From: Candidatus Roizmanbacteria bacterium RIFCSPLOWO2_01_FULL_40_13
GTDB lineage: Bacteria; Patescibacteriota; Microgenomatia; UBA1406; GWC2-37-13
DNA length: 48,396 bases
Reading direction: 5' to 3'
Assembly (NCBI GenBank): GCA_001789745.1
Contig: MGAN01000021.1
Coordinates: 434-48,829, forward strand
Part shown: piece after piece, positions 33,230 through 41,373 of the stretch
Layout: each line of letters begins with the position of its first letter
Numbering within the stretch: the first letter of the stretch is position 1
The notes under the pieces: generated by a model
Database searches by the model: none
What the model was told of the DNA's origin: nothing
The model's input: the letters and a program-made list of their open reading frames with translations, nothing else
Program-made: the position numbers and the translations under genes

Positions 33230-33871
33230 ATGCAGGGATTTATTGATTCTTTAAGGCCCATCTGGGAAAAATATAAAATCGAGGTTTTTCTCATCACCGC
33301 TTCTTTTATTATCACAATCTTATCAGGATTTATCTTTATCATCAACCAGACGGCAAATCAAGCCGAAATCCCAACCCTTACCTCTCCCGACTCCTCAACT
33401 GCATCTTTAAATAAAATCTATGTTGATTTGGCCGGCGCCGTTGAGAAGGCTGAAGTCTATGAGGTTAGCTCCGGGGCTCGGCTAAAAGACATATTGATAA
33501 TGGCCGGGGGTCTATCCCAAGACGCGGACCGGGAGTATTTTACCCGTAACTTTAATTTAGCCAGAGTCGTTAGCGATCAGGAAAAGATTTATGTACCGAG
33601 CATCGAAGAAATCCAATTTAATCAATTTGAGGCTTTACAACAATCTGTTTCAACTTTAAATTTACCTTCTCCTGAAGCTCTGGGAGTTACATCTCTTATA
33701 AATATAAATTCCTCCTCGATGGACGAGCTTGAATCTTTACCCGGTATAGGCCCCGTGACTGCCCAAAAAATTATTCAGGGAAGGCCTTACCAAGCCATTG
33801 ACGACCTGATCAATAAAAAAATCGTCGGCAAAAGCGTCTTTGAAAAAATTAAGGAATTAATTCAAATTTAA
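33230..33871 (+). CDS. comEA: ComEA-like DNA receptor
   Basis: The 213-residue protein has one N-terminal membrane helix (about residues 18-36), an SLBB-type domain ('IYVDLAGAVEKAEVYEVSSGARLKDILIMAGGLSQDAD', about 65-125) and C-terminal helix-hairpin-helix DNA-binding motifs ('ININSSSMDELESLPGIGPVTAQKIIQGRPYQAIDDL'). This is the standard ComEA layout for a DNA receptor on the outer face of the membrane. It is followed by comEC, separated by family D copy 2. TTGACT lies 17 bases before a weak AATTAT box 6 bases from the ATG. Confidence 0.9.
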   Translation: MQGFIDSLRPIWEKYKIEVFLITASFIITILSGFIFIINQTANQAEIPTLTSPDSSTASLNKIYVDLAGAVEKAEVYEVSSGARLKDILIMAGGLSQDADREYFTRNFNLARVVSDQEKIYVPSIEEIQFNQFEALQQSVSTLNLPSPEALGVTSLININSSSMDELESLPGIGPVTAQKIIQGRPYQAIDDLINKKIVGKSVFEKIKELIQI

Positions 33872-33879
33872 AAATGTAA

Positions 33880-33987
33880 AGTAGGTGGCAGATTTGAAAG
33901 GGCTTCCGCAAGCGCGCAGAGTTTTTCCAGCCTGCAGCTGGCTCGAGCACTTGCGGGAATGAAAAATCTGACAGAATCTACTTTGTT
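33880..33987. repeat. Family D element, copy 2 (comEA-comEC junction)
   Basis: AAAGTAGGTGGCAGA at the left and TCTGACAGAATCTACTTT at the right, with nested TTCCGCAAG/CTTGCGGGAA and CCAGC/GCTGG stems. Counterpart of 9857-9966. The outer arms differ from copy 1 in sequence but still pair. Confidence 0.75.
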
Positions 33988-33998
33988 TTTACGAAAAT

Positions 33999-34811
33999 AT
34001 GATTAATTTCACCCCTTCTATTTTCACCGGCGTAATTAATTCTTACCTTCCCGAACCCCACGCCTCCCTTCTCAACGGTATGATCTTCGGCGCCGACCTT
34101 AAAACTTCAAAAGTCTTTTATGAGCAACTTAAAGTCGTTGGTTTACTCCATCTTGTCGTACTCTCAGGTATGAATATAACGCTTCTATCTTCGATAATCG
34201 TGGCTGTATTCTCTTCACTTGGCAAATACTTATCAAGTTTGCTAACCATACTGGCAATATTTATTTTTATCGTCTTCGTTGGGCCGGAAGCCCCAATAAT
34301 CAGAGCTGGCTTTATGGGTATATTAACGCTCGTAGCTTTTATAACAGGCAGAAAAAACTTTGTCTTTTTTTCACTTTTTTTATCGCTGGTCTTTATTTTT
34401 CTCTTCTTTCGCCATTGGTTAACTTCGATTTCCTTACAACTCTCTTACGCTGCAACCACCGGAATCATACTTTTTGGACAGACGAAAGAAATTAACGCCG
34501 ACGGATGGATTAAAAAAATATTCCACTCGATTTATAAAGAATTTAAATTGTCTTTATCGGCGCAGATTTTCACCGTTCCCATTATTTTCATTTACTTTAA
34601 GCAGGTTTCTTTAATTTCACCTCTTGTCAATGTTTTGGTTGCTCCGCTGGTTGCGCCGATTATGGTGTTTGGCTTTCTCACGGCATTCTTGGGAAAAATT
34701 AACTTTCTGCTCGGGTTAATTCCAGCCTATATCTGCTATGGCCTTCTTTCATATATTGTTTTTGTTGTCAATACTTTAGCAAAAATTCCTTTCGCTTTTT
34801 TTAATTTTTAA
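33999..34811 (+). CDS. comEC: ComEC permease (competence) domain, first part
   Basis: This 270-residue frame is the polytopic channel domain of ComEC/Rec2: 'HASLLNGMIFGADLKTSKVFYEQLKVVGLLHLVVLSGMNITLLSSII' (the conserved H..LSG motif) followed by about seven membrane helices. The N-terminal OB-like DUF4131 region is absent. The frame ends at TAA (34809-34811) and then continues open in the same reading frame into the metallo-beta-lactamase domain, so the two parts are separated by one stop codon. In most bacteria these are one protein. Confidence 0.85.
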   Translation: MINFTPSIFTGVINSYLPEPHASLLNGMIFGADLKTSKVFYEQLKVVGLLHLVVLSGMNITLLSSIIVAVFSSLGKYLSSLLTILAIFIFIVFVGPEAPIIRAGFMGILTLVAFITGRKNFVFFSLFLSLVFIFLFFRHWLTSISLQLSYAATTGIILFGQTKEINADGWIKKIFHSIYKEFKLSLSAQIFTVPIIFIYFKQVSLISPLVNVLVAPLVAPIMVFGFLTAFLGKINFLLGLIPAYICYGLLSYIVFVVNTLAKIPFAFFNF

Positions 34812-34814
34812 TTG

Positions 34815-34885
34815 ATACTCCCTGATCTTGTCCATCCTCCGTCCCGATTTAATCGGGACTGCGAAAGGACGGGCGATCGGGAAAT
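34815..34885. repeat. Hairpin repeat between the comEC parts
   Basis: CGTCCCGATTTAATCGGGACG-type hairpin (GTCCCGATT/AATCGGGAC at 34842-34860), followed by CGGGCGATCGGG. Similar words appear in frame in leuS (7360-7380) and elsewhere. It separates the permease and metallo-beta-lactamase parts. Confidence 0.55.
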
Positions 34886-34898
34886 CTTTAACAATTTG

Positions 34899-35777
34899 AT
34901 GTTTGAATCTCCTCTTTCAAAATTTTCCTTATTTCTATCGTTATTTTTATCTCTGCTCATCTTGATTGTTATCCTGTCGGCTTCACTTTTATCCGATCCA
35001 GCCAAAGTTGTTTTTTGCGATGTTGGACAAGGCGATGCTGCCTATATCAGGATTAAAAATCATACCGATATCTTAGTCGACGCCGGACCTGAGAGAAAAA
35101 TTCTCGATTGTCTGGGGAAGTACATGCCGTTTTACGACCGCACCATCGAACTGGCAATAGTTTCCCATCCGCAGAAAGATCACTTTGGCGGACTTGTATA
35201 CATTTTAGACCGTTATGATACTAAAAAGATCTGGATGAGCGAAATCTACAACTCAAGTAAGACCTTTGCAACGCTACTGGATAAGATTGCAACAAAAGAT
35301 ATATTATTAGAATACCCCAAAGCCGGAGAAACCGCCGATTTATCCCGGGCGAAAATTGAGTTTTTGTGGCCTTCCAACGACTTTTTGCTTGCAAATAGCG
35401 TCATCGATCCCGCGACCCACTCTCAACTTAGGCGCTCAGGTAAAGATCCCAATGATTTTTCTCTAATTTTTACTTTTTCTACTGACGGAAACATATTCCT
35501 GTTTACAGGCGATGCTTCTGCTTCAATATTAAATAAGTTGTCAAATCAATCTAAAATTAAATCAGATATCTTAAAAATTCCTCACCATGGCTCAAAATAC
35601 GCACTAGCCGTAGAGTTTCTAGAATTAGCAGACCCCAGATATGGAGTGATAAGCGTTGGCAGCAAAAACTCTTACGGACACCCTGCGCCGGAAGTATTAA
35701 AATCACTCGAAGAGCGAAAAATAATAATTCGCCGGACGGATAAGGAAGGAGATATCATTTTTAATTTTCCAAATTGA
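34899..35777 (+). CDS. ComEC metallo-beta-lactamase domain, second part
   Basis: From the ATG at 34899 (292 residues) the protein has one or two membrane helices ('FSLFLSLFLSLLILIVILSASLL') and then the ComEC-type metallo-beta-lactamase domain: 'VVFCDVGQGDAAYIRIKNHTDILVDAGP', 'ELAIVSHPQKDHFGGLVYIL' (HPQKDH in place of HxHxDH), 'FLFTGDAS' and 'ILKIPHHGSKYAL'. This domain is thought to degrade the non-transported DNA strand. The reading frame is open right back to the stop of the first part; a TTG at 34812 could also serve as start. Confidence 0.85.
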   Translation: MFESPLSKFSLFLSLFLSLLILIVILSASLLSDPAKVVFCDVGQGDAAYIRIKNHTDILVDAGPERKILDCLGKYMPFYDRTIELAIVSHPQKDHFGGLVYILDRYDTKKIWMSEIYNSSKTFATLLDKIATKDILLEYPKAGETADLSRAKIEFLWPSNDFLLANSVIDPATHSQLRRSGKDPNDFSLIFTFSTDGNIFLFTGDASASILNKLSNQSKIKSDILKIPHHGSKYALAVEFLELADPRYGVISVGSKNSYGHPAPEVLKSLEERKIIIRRTDKEGDIIFNFPN

Positions 35778-35795
35778 TCTAATTTCTCATTGACC

Positions 35796-35963
35796 TATAG
35801 TCAACGCAAAACAAAATGACCGGTTTTGATAAATGTCATGCTGAACTTGTTTCAGCATCTATACCCCCTCTTAGTTGATTTTGCAAATTGTCAACTAAAG
35901 TCATCTTATCAAATCAACTAAGGAGGGGTATTACTGATTGCAATCTCAATCAATAGAAGTATA
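35796..35963. repeat. Joined family A (half) and family B elements
   Basis: A 69-bp half family A (CTATAGTCAACGCAAAACAAAATG...TTCAGCATCTATA, 35796-35864) runs directly into a full family B element (TATACCCCCTCTTAGTTGATT...AATAGAAGTATA, 35861-35963). They fill the space between two convergent genes and could end both messages. Confidence 0.75.
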
Positions 35964-35995
35964 TATCAAATACTTATTTTTATTATTTTTAAACT

Positions 35996-36778
35996 TTATG
36001 CAAGCAATATGCTTCTTATTTCTTTGTAGATTTTGAAGGCTTCGAATCCGATCCAGTTACTTCCCATCAACTCCGGCGGAAGTCCGGGATCATTTTTCAG
36101 AATCTCGACGTAAAGACTGATGATTTTCGAAAATTTATCCAATTTTTCTCCGTTTTGAGATAGTATGTCATGCCAGACTTTGAAAATATCTCTGTATTTC
36201 TTCTCCAGCGTGGATTTTTGCCATACTTTCTCAATTAGCACATCACGTTGGCCCACAACATGATCCGATTCGAAGGCTTGCACGTATTTCTCCTCTTCTT
36301 GCTGATAAATCAACTCACGTAAATTTTCTATAATCGGATGAGGAGTTAACCAAAAAGATCTATGCCAAGGACCCAGTCCCCAACCCGCCACTTCCCTTCT
36401 CAATCTATCTCTAATCTCCCTTTTCTTTTCAGGTATCTCGTATGAAAGTATTCTCCACTTGGAATCCCAAGTGTCCTTAACAAACCTGAAAAAAGGAAAT
36501 TTCAGGCAAATATGATAAAAACCTTTTTCTGTGAGTCTGTATTGATTATTTGTTTCGTTCGTTTGAATTACGCCTCCATCTTGCGTCTGTTCTTGATTAT
36601 GCGTTTTCTCGATTGACCCCTCCTTTATTAAACCGGATATAGTCCCTTTAGTTTTTTGGTTTAGTTTTAAATCAAAAATACGCTGAAGTTTATCATTAAA
36701 AGCAACGCCGCCTAAATTTACGTCAGATAATAATATTAGCGAGAGTAAAATTTTCGTTCGCCTATCTTTAATTCCCAT
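35996..36778 (-). CDS. PaaX-like transcriptional regulator
   Basis: The 260-residue protein has an N-terminal winged-helix-like region ('KILLSLILLSDVNLGG...GTISGLIKEGSIEKT...YRLTEKGFYHI'), the PaaX central domain ('WDSKWRILSYEIPEKKREIRDRLRREVAGWGLGPWHRSFWLTPHPI', a ferredoxin-like fold related to Cas2) and the PaaX C-terminal 'LYVEILKNDPGLPPELMGSNWIGFEAFKIYKEI'. PaaX regulates phenylacetate degradation in Proteobacteria, but no such genes are here, so the ligand is unknown. The start at 36778 follows a TTGACA-17-TAAATT promoter 8 bases upstream. A 9-bp inverted repeat covers the -10 box, suggesting autorepression. Confidence 0.8.
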   Translation of the reverse strand: MGIKDRRTKILLSLILLSDVNLGGVAFNDKLQRIFDLKLNQKTKGTISGLIKEGSIEKTHNQEQTQDGGVIQTNETNNQYRLTEKGFYHICLKFPFFRFVKDTWDSKWRILSYEIPEKKREIRDRLRREVAGWGLGPWHRSFWLTPHPIIENLRELIYQQEEEKYVQAFESDHVVGQRDVLIEKVWQKSTLEKKYRDIFKVWHDILSQNGEKLDKFSKIISLYVEILKNDPGLPPELMGSNWIGFEAFKIYKEIRSILLA

Positions 36779-36782
36779 GTGC

Positions 36783-36808
36783 AAACAATTTAACAGACGA
36801 AATTGTTT
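36783..36808. promoter_or_regulatory. Probable operator of the PaaX-like gene
   Basis: AAACAATTT, 8 bases, AAATTGTTT: a perfect 9-bp inverted repeat. It contains the -10 box TAAATT (36792-36787) and lies inside the TTGACA (36815-36810) to start-codon interval, so a protein bound here would block transcription of the regulator. Confidence 0.65.
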
Positions 36809-36815
36809 TTGTCAA
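36787..36815 (-). promoter_or_regulatory. Promoter of the PaaX-like gene
   Basis: TTGACA (36815-36810), 17 bases, TAAATT (36792-36787), 8 bases, ATG. A leaderless layout like that of leuS and the WhiB-like gene. Confidence 0.75.
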
Positions 36816-37464
36816 CAACTATTTTCTGACGTAGATTTTAGATTAAAAATGCCGAACTAGATTATAACGTACGAGCTAAATATGAGAATGAAGATAAATA
36901 CTTAGCTGACTGACGACTTCTTTTTAGAATGTCTTTTTACTAACGTAAACTTTTATCAATTAGGTTGGGGATTTTGCGAAAGCCGTGTAAAATATAGCGA
37001 AGTACGAATTCTTAATTGTTTTTAGGATAAACAAATGCAGCTGGATAAAGAAGTATAGTTTTTCCATACACTACGTCTGTTTTTGTATAAGAAGGCGTTT
37101 GATCTTAAACTCAACCTAAATCAGGATATAAAAAAATTAGCACTTATCAAATATGGATGCCAGATTAACAAATAATAACGTTTATTTTAAAAATTTTAAA
37201 TATAGAAACATAACTATTTTCAAACTCTGTTTTTTGCTTAGCGGTTGACTCCCATTAATTCAATTTTAACGAAGAGAAACTTAAGCATTTCTTAATTACT
37301 ATAAGTTAATACTATTATAGGTTTAATGATCGATTACGACCTATTGACTTTATCTGTTTTGCATGCGGTAATGAAAATAAATACGATTAAACTTTATTAT
37401 AAGATTATTTACTCTTTACCTTTTTAGCTTCAAGAACTATATCAAAATACCACTATAATATCTC
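36816..37464. other. AT-rich gene-free gap upstream of the recombinase-domain fusion
   Basis: About 650 bases with stop codons in all frames and unusually low GC. The only repeat-like word is GGTTGGGGATTTTGCG near 36964, a diverged family E fragment ending in AGCGAAGTACGAATTC (compare AGAATATACCGAAGTTCG near 32270). AT-rich words such as TATAAGTTAATACTATTATAGG (37301-37320 region) are short imperfect palindromes. I see no gene or tRNA. It could be a regulatory or attachment region for the large surface gene. Confidence 0.5.
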
Positions 37465-37494
37465 TTGACATCTTCCTGCTTATTCTATTATTAT
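37465..37494 (+). promoter_or_regulatory. Promoter of the recombinase-domain fusion
   Basis: TTGACA (37465-37470), 18 bases, TATTAT (37489-37494). The expected start site is about 10 bases before the ATG at 37512. An ATG at 37500 opens only a six-codon frame overlapping the true start. Confidence 0.6.
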
Positions 37495-37511
37495 AAATAT
37501 GAATAAAATAT

Positions 37512-40358
37512 ATGTATAATCTTTCTAATTTAGAGCCTAAATTTAAAAATTTTCTGCTTGCGGAAAATATTTCTGTCATCAGTATCAGGAATTATCTCTC
37601 TGACGTTAGACATTTCTTTGGCTGGTTGATTGCGAATCAGATCTATGATAACGATAAAAATCTGCGGACCAATTTAGCCTCAATTAAGGAATCTGCTATT
37701 GAAGACTATAAAAATAGCTATCTCAAGGCCAATCTTCCCAAAAAGACGATAAATCGCAGACTATCTGCTCTCAGGAAATTTTTTACGTTTGTCCAAAAAC
37801 AAGGCGCAATCGAAGCTAATCCCGCAACTAAAGTAAACAACGTCTCCTCTCTTCAGGTAAAACCTACAGTTCACAAACCTGCTCCGGCAATCGATAAAAC
37901 TCCCACCCGGAATAAAATGAAAAATAAGCAGAAAGCTGTTAAATTCAATTTTATCTTTCTAAAAATTGCTTTAGCAATTATAATCTTATTTTTTCCTCTT
38001 GCTCTTTTTATTCAACACAAATTTAAAACTGCACAACAGTTTGTTCCTGTTCTCAGTAAACAACCTCCAAACAAACGGTATATCGCTTTTAGCGGAAAAT
38101 TAACAGACGAATTGGGTAATCCAATTATTTCAAAAACAGACGTTAAATTTAACTTATATACAGCGCCAGTTGGAGCAGAATCTGTTTATACGTCATACTG
38201 CATTGGACAAGATGGCGCAATAACTCCGGACGTAAATGGCAACATTCGTGTACTTATTGGATATGACTGTGATAGAAGTCCAATAGACTCAAATATTTTT
38301 ATTGATTACCCGGTAATTTATCTTGGAGTTACGCCCGGATCAGATGTAGAGATGCAACCTAGGCATAAAATTCCGAACGTAGGATATGCACTCAACTCAG
38401 ATACCCTTCAAGGCTTGAATCCAGGGTCAGATTATATGTCAATTCCTTTTATCAACCAAAGCGGAGATCTGCTAATCGGAGCTTTAGAGCCAGGAATACA
38501 TTCAATTTTTGAAAGTGAAAATTTTACTATCTCAAGCGCCGAAACCATAAACGTGCAATCCGCAGGCATCGGCGACGTAGTCTTGCAGGCGTCAGACAGC
38601 GGAGGAATTAAATTTCGCACGGGCGGAATTAGTGATACCTATACCAGATTGCTTATCAATAATGAAGGCAATATTGGAATAGGAACTCTTTTTCCCTCTT
38701 ACGGTTTGGAAGTAAATGACGATATTAAGGTCACAGACGGCAATAGATTGATTGTAGGATCCTCACCGACAGATCCAAGCGGCGAAAACGGAGCCATTTA
38801 CTATAATACCGGTTCAGGAAAATTTCGCTGTTTTCAGAAAAATCAATGGTTTGACTGTTTTGATCAAGCTGAAACTAACTCGATTGGTGGCGCCTACGAA
38901 GGTAACTTGTCCACAGATACAGCCTGGTCTCAACTTGAAACTCAAATCTATCTGCTTACAAATACTGTTGACAATTTAAAAAGCAAAATTGACACTTTAT
39001 CAAAATTCTCTCTGAACGTCCTAACTGCTAACTACCGGCTATTAGCTACCAATCTATCCGTCAGTGAAAAAATTACTTCTCCGATTGTCGAAACAACCCA
39101 AATTAAAACTAATGAAATTATAAATAATCATGGAGATATTAATGTCATTCTGGGGAGTCAGGTCTCGGATGCTAACCTGACTACTCCCGAATCCGACGGC
39201 GATTCTGGCCAAACCGGATTGACAAACAAAAATAAGGGTTCGCTTGCCTCACTCATCATCAAAGGACTTGAAGGAAAAACCGTCGCTATAATTGATGCGG
39301 CCGGCAACGCCTCCTTTAGCGGGCAACTCGCCGCCAACGATCTATTGATTGCAAATAACGCATCTGTATCCGGTAGTCTTTACGCAAATTCTATAGAATC
39401 AGAAAATTTAAACTCGTTAACTCAAGAAGTCTCCAACACCAAGGCCAGAACCGCTGCGGTTGAGGAGAAGATAAGCGGACTTGTCCCTCGAATCCCGACC
39501 GAGTCGGGAGAAGTGGAAAAAACCTCGGCGGTTAGCCAAAGCTTGATAAACGATATTAATGATATTCAATTTCTACTTGCCGATCTCAAGTCCCAACCGC
39601 TCCCCAACCCAAACTATTATCAAAACTTAGATACCAATCAACAATCAACAATTGACAATGTAATCATGGAACAATTAACCGTTACGGACAAATCCAACTT
39701 TTATGACACTGCCGTCTCTAATTCTTCAACCGTAGGCAGTCTACTTTTGCAGGACAACTCTATCCTCTCCCTCGCCTGGGATCTGAAGTTATCCGCACTC
39801 TCCAAGATCAAGCTTTTTGACGATACCGTCATTATCTCCAAAGACGGATCTATCACAGCAAAAGGTAAAGTGCTAGCTGAAGGCGGTCTTGTTACTAATA
39901 AGATAGAAGCCTTAAATGAGAATGAAGCAGTTAACATTGACAGATTAGCCCTTTCTAACTTAATAATCAATGATCGGTTTTTAAGTAATTCCTCCTCTTC
40001 TGCCTTAATCGCGTCATCCGAAAATTTTGAAATTAACGGAATCTTTAGTCCTGCCTTCGAAACCGGAAAAACAATTGCCGGAGATGCGGTTATTCCTTCC
40101 CAAAGCCAAGAGATTATAATATACAATAGTAATGTTACCGATTCCTCTCTCATTTATCTTACCCCAAAAGGCCAAATCACAACTTCACCCGTATCTGTCA
40201 GTAAAAAAGAGCCTTGTGGATCAATCTCCCCCGAGATGAATGAAACAAATAAAACCACCTCGGGGGTGGAAAATCCCGGCTGTAAACCTTATTTCAAAGT
40301 CTCACTTCCCGTCCCGGCAACCCAACCATTAGCTTTTGACTGGTTAATAATCAACTGA
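37512..40358 (+). CDS. Membrane surface protein with N-terminal tyrosine-recombinase DNA-binding domain and tail-fibre-like ectodomain
   Basis: The first 108 residues are a clear core-binding (SAM-like) domain of XerC/D-type recombinases ('FLLAENISVISIRNYLSDVRHFFGWLIANQ', 'YKNSYLKANLPKKTINRRLSALRKFFTFVQKQGAIEANPATKV'). No catalytic domain follows: there is no R...HxxR...Y. Instead come a Lys/Pro linker, a basic stop, and one membrane helix (about residues 146-168, positive side N-terminal), so the DNA-binding part should be cytoplasmic. The 780-residue ectodomain begins with a carboxypeptidase-regulatory-like strand set ('FSGKLTDELGNPIISKTDVKFNLYT'), has a tail-fibre-type motif 'NEGNIGIGTLFPSYGLEVNDDIKV', coiled-coil stretches (about 475-520, 640-665) and repeated beta-helix-like words. 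Repeat-coded patches occur in frame (39142-39180, 39488-39510, 40215-40275). It probably forms a transcript with the TPR gene. Confidence 0.8.
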   Translation: MYNLSNLEPKFKNFLLAENISVISIRNYLSDVRHFFGWLIANQIYDNDKNLRTNLASIKESAIEDYKNSYLKANLPKKTINRRLSALRKFFTFVQKQGAIEANPATKVNNVSSLQVKPTVHKPAPAIDKTPTRNKMKNKQKAVKFNFIFLKIALAIIILFFPLALFIQHKFKTAQQFVPVLSKQPPNKRYIAFSGKLTDELGNPIISKTDVKFNLYTAPVGAESVYTSYCIGQDGAITPDVNGNIRVLIGYDCDRSPIDSNIFIDYPVIYLGVTPGSDVEMQPRHKIPNVGYALNSDTLQGLNPGSDYMSIPFINQSGDLLIGALEPGIHSIFESENFTISSAETINVQSAGIGDVVLQASDSGGIKFRTGGISDTYTRLLINNEGNIGIGTLFPSYGLEVNDDIKVTDGNRLIVGSSPTDPSGENGAIYYNTGSGKFRCFQKNQWFDCFDQAETNSIGGAYEGNLSTDTAWSQLETQIYLLTNTVDNLKSKIDTLSKFSLNVLTANYRLLATNLSVSEKITSPIVETTQIKTNEIINNHGDINVILGSQVSDANLTTPESDGDSGQTGLTNKNKGSLASLIIKGLEGKTVAIIDAAGNASFSGQLAANDLLIANNASVSGSLYANSIESENLNSLTQEVSNTKARTAAVEEKISGLVPRIPTESGEVEKTSAVSQSLINDINDIQFLLADLKSQPLPNPNYYQNLDTNQQSTIDNVIMEQLTVTDKSNFYDTAVSNSSTVGSLLLQDNSILSLAWDLKLSALSKIKLFDDTVIISKDGSITAKGKVLAEGGLVTNKIEALNENEAVNIDRLALSNLIINDRFLSNSSSSALIASSENFEINGIFSPAFETGKTIAGDAVIPSQSQEIIIYNSNVTDSSLIYLTPKGQITTSPVSVSKKEPCGSISPEMNETNKTTSGVENPGCKPYFKVSLPVPATQPLAFDWLIIN

Positions 40359-40428: not shown

Positions 40429-41373
40429 ATGACTAGCATAAATTCTATCTATCATTCACTACAACCATTTTTCAAATTTTTTCCGGGTTTTCTTGCAATA
40501 ATGGTCCTTTTTGCGCTAATCATTAAAGGTAGTTTTCGAAAAAGAAATATACTCAAGAGAAAGCCCTATCTTTATTCTCTACCGATAATTTTCGCTTTCC
40601 TGCTTGCCATAAGCTTTTTCCTTTTGGCTCGGGCAGTGCAGGCAGAATTTTACTTCACCAAATCCTTGTCTACCCGGATCGCCAAAGAAATCTATAGTTA
40701 TCAAAAAAAAGCTGTCTTGATTAATCCCTATAATTCTGCCTATCGCAGAGCCTTTTCCCAAACCAATCTGCTCATCGCCGGCGGCATAGTTCGACAATCG
40801 GACGATCAGCAAAACACTCTAACCCCCGGGGTTGAAGAACGCGGCGGGTTCGCCCCTCGAAGCTCGGAGAACGAAGCGGGGAAAACCTCGGGGGTTGAAT
40901 TGTCAGATACCGATCGCCAGACTATAATCCAAGCTATCCGCGCGTCAATCGATGAAGCCAAAGCCGCAGTCAAATTAGACGATCATGATAGTAAAAACTG
41001 GGAAAATCTGGCGCTTGTTTACCGCAACCTGATTAATCTGGTTGAAGACGCAGATCTTTGGGCAATTTCTTCCTACCAGAGAGCCATAATCCTGGATCCT
41101 AACAATCCCGAACTTCGCTTGGGACTGGGGGGCGTTTATTACTCCATATCCGAATACAAAGAAGCAATTAAAGCTTTCGAAGAAGCCATAAAACTTAAAC
41201 CCGGCTGGCCCAACGCCTACTATAATCTGGCTTGGACCCACTATAAAATCGGCAATCAATCCCAGGCTATCTCTGGTATGGAAAAAGTAATAACCCTGCT
41301 AAAATCGCAAAATAAAGGCAGTGAATTAAAACAAGCCGAAAAAGATTTGAGTGAATTTAAATCTTCACCTTAA
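40429..41373 (+). CDS. Membrane-anchored TPR protein
   Basis: The 314-residue protein has two N-terminal membrane helices ('FLAIMVLFALIIKG' at about 18-33 and 'SLPIIFAFLLAISFFLLARAV' at about 48-69), then tetratricopeptide repeats ('SKNWENLALVYRNLI', 'DLWAISSYQRAIILDPNNPELRLGLGGVYYSISEYKEAIKAFEEAIKLKPGWPNAYYNLAWTHYKIGNQSQAISGMEKVI'). It resembles the C-terminal part of O-antigen-ligase-like TPR proteins found in related genomes and likely scaffolds a membrane complex. An in-frame repeat insert (PGVEERGGFAPRSSENEAGKTSGVE, 40820-40905) is bounded by CCCCGGGGTTGAA/CTCGGGGGTTGAA words. It lies 70 bp after the fusion gene. Confidence 0.75.
   Translation: MTSINSIYHSLQPFFKFFPGFLAIMVLFALIIKGSFRKRNILKRKPYLYSLPIIFAFLLAISFFLLARAVQAEFYFTKSLSTRIAKEIYSYQKKAVLINPYNSAYRRAFSQTNLLIAGGIVRQSDDQQNTLTPGVEERGGFAPRSSENEAGKTSGVELSDTDRQTIIQAIRASIDEAKAAVKLDDHDSKNWENLALVYRNLINLVEDADLWAISSYQRAIILDPNNPELRLGLGGVYYSISEYKEAIKAFEEAIKLKPGWPNAYYNLAWTHYKIGNQSQAISGMEKVITLLKSQNKGSELKQAEKDLSEFKSSP

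Follow-up and report, generated by a model that had tools for sequence, protein, structure and literature searches.

The window, by which we mean the whole stretch of 48,396 nucleotides that was analysed (part of one contig of a 1.04-Mb genome), encodes a genuine tyrosine-recombinase core-binding domain (CBD) that lacks its catalytic domain and is continued, in the same open reading frame, by a membrane helix and a tail-fibre-like ectodomain (Table 1). The protein belongs to a family of Microgenomatia in which the CBD is mostly a separate gene beside a fibre gene, a second CBD is cut between the two products, and a conserved array of short boxes lies upstream.

Table 1. Features of the locus, with positions in the window and residue numbers of the 948-aa protein.
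Feature	Position	Strand	Remarks
PaaX-like regulator	35996..36784	-	divergently oriented neighbour within the window's order; still present where the array has gone
Conserved box array upstream of the CBD gene	37297..37403	+	CTATARG boxes, TGATATA repeats, TGCGGTAATT, TTAAAT repeats
Conserved promoter block	37434..37501	+	AACTATATCAAAATA, TTGACA 37465-37470, TATTAT about 37489-37494
Single ORF: core-binding domain, membrane helix, tail-fibre-like ectodomain	37512..40358	+	948 aa, ATG start
Tyrosine-recombinase core-binding (SAM-like) domain, residues 6-108	37527..37835	+	PF02899; AlphaFold2; XerD 1a0p
Basic disordered linker, residues 116-146	37857..37949	+	9 K/R, 1 D/E; place of CBD2 in tandem relatives
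Membrane helix, residues 147-170	37950..38021	+	Kyte-Doolittle scan, AlphaFold2
Beta-rich membrane-proximal ectodomain module (FSGKLTDELGNPI...VGYA), residues 188-290	38073..38381	+	AlphaFold2, structure alignment; conserved in alignments A2, A3
Fibre segment with NIGIGT motif, residues 356-403	38577..38720	+	like Bdellovibrio fibre Bd2133 (8ond)
Conserved C-terminal region, residues 680-948	39549..40355	+	common to most relatives of the order
TPR protein	40429..41373	+	the window keeps only the TPR end of a larger membrane protein

The identity and fold of the domain are established computationally. In a search with the whole 948-aa protein, Phage_int_SAM_1 (PF02899) matches residues 11-97 over profile positions 4-82 of 83 (E 7.8e-11; 42.6 bits, gathering score 22.3), and residues 1-113 searched alone give E 6.8e-13. 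The NCBIfam XerC and XerD models match only within their first ~100 positions, and no Pfam or NCBIfam match to a catalytic recombinase domain occurs anywhere in the 948 aa, the membrane helix and fibre standing there instead. In an AlphaFold2 model of residues 1-460, the CBD consists of helices at 7-17, 22-41, 51-57, 60-72 and 77-96 (pLDDT about 86-98) and is followed by the membrane helix (147-170) and then by a beta-rich ectodomain; in VIA-align, the XerD structure 1a0p superposes on residues 3-108 with Z 12.8 and rmsd 1.7 over 90 residues. CBDs make protein contacts in recombinase tetramers, and such a domain might contact the cell's own XerC/D-type recombinase or compete with it at dif, so that dimer resolution would be coupled to the envelope. 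The window genome does encode a separate complete Xer recombinase, but the window protein is only ~30% identical to Xer CBDs and a search near the gene with a general dif consensus gave no convincing or shared site, and we regard this explanation as very improbable.

A Kyte-Doolittle scan finds one membrane segment, at residues 147-165, flanked by the basic linker on one side and by 5 K/R in residues 170-190 on the other. Because basic residues concentrate N-terminal of the helix, the CBD is predicted to lie on the cytoplasmic side of the membrane. Within the ectodomain, the NIGIGT segment superposes on Bd2133 (8ond) with Z 6.5 and rmsd 1.6 over 48 residues (29% identity) and also aligns with Bdellovibrio Bd3182. 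Among relatives, the ectodomain of L074 carries Gp34_trimer, a phage long-tail-fibre trimerisation domain (3.2e-20), together with an S74 chaperone, and that of L063 carries collagen repeats. As regards a trimeric beta-rich shaft, the window protein itself shows the short Bd2133 alignment, the trimer modules being found only in the relatives; the trimerisation domain, chaperone and collagen repeats of these relatives point to a surface-fibre locus, with a product that is probably trimeric. The sequence-only reading had proposed a XerC/D core-binding domain at residues 6-108 with no catalytic part, a membrane helix with a basic N-terminal side, and a tail-fibre-like ectodomain, and had suggested checking the N-terminal segment for a SAM-like fold; the results above bear it out on all of these points.

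Two further fibre proteins may be noted here. The window's own genome encodes a second tail-fibre-like surface protein with an NIGIGT segment (L071, contig C6, 4268-7387), in which no CBD was detected and whose ORF is cut by the contig end. Open frames of fibre genes in relatives reach 7471 aa, a length attained by a single open frame (G036:C32:42401-65255) in a genome of ~1.5 Mb.

The same single-frame fusion is present in same-genus and near genomes (G001, G002, G004 with two copies, and G006), and the join in the window is therefore genuine. In G004 the complete locus (ComEA, ComEC, PaaX, CBD-fibre and TPR genes) is present twice, on contigs C20 and C8, each time with a protein ~55% identical to that of the window. 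That the protein is evolutionary debris or an assembly artefact has nothing in its favour beyond the odd mix of domains: its occurrence in several independent genomes rules out assembly as the source of the join, the first CBD, both half-domains and the array are conserved class-wide, and we give this explanation practically no weight.

Beyond the window's genus, the CBD of most relatives is encoded on its own, by a gene of about 153-215 aa that closely precedes the fibre gene. The sequence-only reading had recommended a search for the fusion in other Patescibacteria, and had named, as a finding that would speak against it, homologues with the segment in a gene of its own together with an artefactual join here. 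Only half of this applies: separate genes are common, but the join is real. The view of a single fused protein, correct for the window, overlooked the separate gene of most relatives, the class-wide family, and the tandem or split second CBD. A survey of 281 Microgenomatia genomes found the orphan CBD family in about 113 of them (at E 1e-14 or better, a threshold at which a few matching rows are genuine Xer recombinases); named members include Roizmanbacteria, Shapirobacteria, Gottesmanbacteria, Amesbacteria, Woesebacteria, Collierbacteria and Levybacteria (Microgenomates). No genome of the other patescibacterial classes surveyed matched, all 13 matches of the phylum survey being Microgenomatia. 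A search of viral contigs gave only five weak matches (27-35% identity), probably ordinary integrases, and no earlier report of a fibre combined with a recombinase CBD was found in the open-access literature. One PDB entry, 9i5v chain 14 (labelled RaiA, 401 aa), also has an N-terminal core-binding domain and is probably a mislabelled or fused Xer recombinase.

The family occurs in three layouts. In the first, found in more distant families, CBD1, CBD2, the membrane helix and the fibre follow one another within one protein. In the second, there are two genes and the cut falls inside CBD2, so that CBD1 and the initial half of CBD2 make up a soluble protein, and the other half of CBD2 opens the fibre protein, ahead of its membrane helix. 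In the third, which is that of the window, CBD1 is fused to the fibre and CBD2 is lost; all 14 single-CBD fusions, the window's included (families f1, f2, f4 and f9), are without CBD2. On a short and weakly resolved CBD1 tree, the fusion label needs seven changes on the best tree, of which well-supported branches force at least two. CBD1 itself is strongly conserved across relatives, including its aB and aD helices (KNYLSDLRHF and TINRRLSTLRKF), and is mostly basic, with a mean net charge of +5.4 over 73 CBD1 sequences and +8 in the window protein.

The split position within CBD2 emerges from several comparisons. Ends of the small protein (ORF1) resemble helices 1-2 of a second CBD and starts of the fibre protein resemble the remaining helices, with fibre heads alone matching only the second half of the PF02899 profile. 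Once joined, the halves of G051 match positions 3-83 of this profile (E 1.1e-13) and those of G041 match it with E 2.1e-10. A profile of joined CBD2 matches the CBD1 profile with E 2.2e-18, the swapped order matching through one half only, and of 15 split pairs from families that had not entered the HMM training, 14 had both halves recognised. When a natural pair is translated through its stop, the prediction shows two CBDs, with high-confidence helices on either side of the stop; in this model, which represents CBD2 complementation as one read-through chain, residues 123-243 superpose on the integrase CBD IntS (2kj8) with Z 7.1, a value that is modest on its own.

The two CBD2 halves of G030 and G037 are separated by an entire surface-protein gene of ~6 kb (1899 aa at L051, 5093-16230; 2214 aa at L056, 4897-16001) and are thus distinct products. 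Frameshifting, stop readthrough or bypass is rejected as a general cause of the split because the stops vary (TAA, TAG and TGA), the gaps in the window's order are in mixed frames, and intervening genes occur in the two genomes just named. Where the gap between the split genes is shorter than 20 nt, the genes are in frame in nine of ten cases, and the split may therefore have arisen by a nonsense mutation followed by restart. Given the three layouts and the loss of CBD2 in direct fusions, the second half-domain looks like a docking joint: we infer that the half-domains attach the soluble subunit to the membrane protein and are no longer needed once the two are covalently fused. CBD2 may also have a role on DNA, since the tandem one-gene forms keep it with no need of docking. 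At one locus (L094, 2588-3562), the soluble partner consists of two whole CBDs and the fibre protein starts with a further half-domain, so there may be three CBDs in total.

Between PaaX and the CBD gene, many relatives have an AT-rich gap of 650-900 bp in which little can be aligned apart from two elements, the promoter block and an array of ~107 bp that has CTATARG boxes at both ends and lies about 60-170 bp upstream of the conserved -35 element. A model of the array (R1) gives E below 1e-3 in 25 of 57 genomes, in every case directly upstream of the CBD gene; there is one array per genome, except that G004 has two, one beside each gene copy. Loci that were outside the model building (L040, L052, L057, L058, L035 and L038) match with E 1e-10 to 9e-5, compared with 0.003 for the best match elsewhere, and weaker matches occur at the equivalent place in other families (L080, L074 and L063). 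Searches of 35700-37700 against Rfam gave chance-level matches only. Between the promoter and the CBD gene, several families (L088, L095, L102, L082-L084) have a small ORF of ~40-50 aa with a single membrane helix (MYKSYNFEPKSL...MAERLVPFLIIATTFV is an example), the start of which is similar to the N-terminal MYNLYNLE of CBD proteins in the order.

The losses bear on what may bind the array. G016 and G035 keep the fibre and PaaX genes, have lost CBD1, and retain a remnant of the array or none; since PaaX persists in several CBD1-less genomes from which the array is absent, PaaX is disfavoured as its sole binder. CBD1 fits as the putative binder, and the array could also be bound by another regulator. 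The linkage between array and CBD1 is partly the simple inheritance of one locus, the informative losses coming from two genera only.

The main rival to DNA binding is the view that the CBDs serve for docking alone, as structural parts. CBD folds can serve protein contacts too, and here they would have lost DNA binding and would help to dock or assemble a trimeric fibre at its base, the array being an ordinary promoter region to which an unrelated regulator binds. This would suit the cutting of CBD2 between two proteins in most relatives and its loss after direct fusion, the slightly acidic ORF1 tail halves (mean charge -0.8), and the trimer modules of relatives' ectodomains (Gp34_trimer and S74 in L074, collagen repeats in L063). 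It accounts for CBD2 alone, however, and leaves unexplained a CBD1 that is still basic and conserves its aB and aD helices, and an array that tracks the CBD gene rather than PaaX. We consider it rather unlikely.

Alternatively, the protein might be a DNA anchor rather than a regulator, with a centromere-like array that fastens the chromosome, or else its origin or terminus, at the fibre-bearing pole or attachment site. One site per genome beside the gene of its presumed binder recalls parS-type sites, and the membrane linkage would suit an anchor, but the distance of the array from the -35 element is that of a regulatory position and no dif-like site or link to the terminus was found. Moreover, about half of the class is without the family, which is therefore not a general segregation system, and an anchor of this kind seems improbable to us.

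A search for conserved neighbours (PaaX-like, TPR) had been recommended at the outset. A PaaX gene is the divergent neighbour within the window's order, and a membrane protein of 630-760 aa with C-terminal TPRs is encoded downstream class-wide; one of three such proteins tested has a Wzy_C (O-antigen-ligase) match. Upstream, many relatives encode a small membrane protein that contains a Big_1 Ig-like domain. ComEA and ComEC genes lie near the CBD gene at 33230-35777 in the window and within a few kb, on varying sides and in varying orientations, at other loci (L033-L040, L043, L052, L058, L059, L061, L063, L068 and L097). Their vicinity, which the sequence-only reading had noted, proved a weak link to competence: ComEA/ComEC are found at 12-13 loci of the window's order and a few beyond it, and because their side and orientation vary and most other families are without them as searched, a role in competence is not supported. 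CBDs bind double-stranded DNA and ComEC delivers single strands, which also argues against a protein that receives incoming DNA together with ComEA/ComEC; despite the proximity in the window's order, we think such a function highly improbable.

The reading that we favour, tentatively and at somewhat less than an even chance, is that of a DNA-binding fibre, anchored in the membrane, that acts on the array upstream of its gene. CBD1 would still grip double-stranded DNA and would have as its target the conserved array that closely precedes its own promoter. Where there are two genes, the soluble subunit would complete the second CBD and thereby dock on the membrane stub, so that DNA is linked to the fibre; in the form seen in the window, the link would be covalent, with the docking domain lost. 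The fibre could then regulate its own gene, or keep that gene membrane-bound so that a very large exported protein is made on the spot, perhaps depending on the fibre's binding partner. The earlier proposal of a DNA tether or membrane-bound regulator thus had the right frame, whereas its plasmid or incoming DNA gives way to evidence that points to one chromosomal site beside the gene.

The full extension of this reading is bolder, and we rate it as possible but rather doubtful. It would be a class-wide system of the Microgenomatia in which a soluble DNA-binding subunit and a membrane stub, each with half of a CBD, join by making the domain whole and bind the array, present in single copy at the promoter of the fibre gene. 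A giant phage-tail-like fibre would thereby keep its gene membrane-bound, and attachment on the outside would be coupled to fibre synthesis on the spot inside the cell. If true, this would be a membrane-bound DNA-binding receptor made of recombinase parts, with a split domain linking the products of two genes, in episymbiont-like bacteria about whose host attachment and gene control, to our knowledge, very little is known. It would also be an example of transertion, the coupling of gene to membrane, for exported proteins of very large size. Two of the predictions, binding to one array of ~107 bp and docking through a split domain, are directly testable.

Regulators of the ToxR/CadC/VtrA type have the same general plan, with an N-terminal DNA-binding-type domain in the cytoplasm, one membrane helix and a C-terminal domain outside, which for the window protein is a prediction. 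They differ in that their DNA-binding domain is a (winged) helix-turn-helix rather than a recombinase core-binding domain, and their outer domain a small sensor rather than a fibre adhesin. The window protein has no match to the Trans_reg_C winged helix-turn-helix and is therefore not a member of the ToxR/CadC family. As a sign of promoter binding and of an effect on transcription, which mark that family, the conserved array beside the gene is circumstantial. VtrA/VtrC is a two-protein version of this type, which captures its target locus at the membrane (PMC9977878).

With the tyrosine recombinases (XerC/D, lambda Int), the window protein shares the core-binding fold. Its family is without the catalytic domain, is membrane-anchored, and has tandem or split CBDs in relatives; lacking the catalytic domain, the window protein is thus not a recombinase. 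A recombinase fold that serves as a transcription repressor without recombination is known in MrpR (YopR) of phage SPbeta (PMC10516654).

The ectodomain most closely recalls the mosaic adhesive trimer (MAT) fibres of Bdellovibrio, through the segment shared with Bd2133 and Bd3182, the S74 domain of a relative and the beta-rich membrane-proximal module. MAT proteins follow a signal peptide (PMC10769870), and neither this nor the conserved N-terminal beta domain of MAT fibres was found in the window protein. Its N-terminus is instead the CBD, and the internal helix at 147-170 joins the fibre to this predicted cytoplasmic domain of DNA-binding type.
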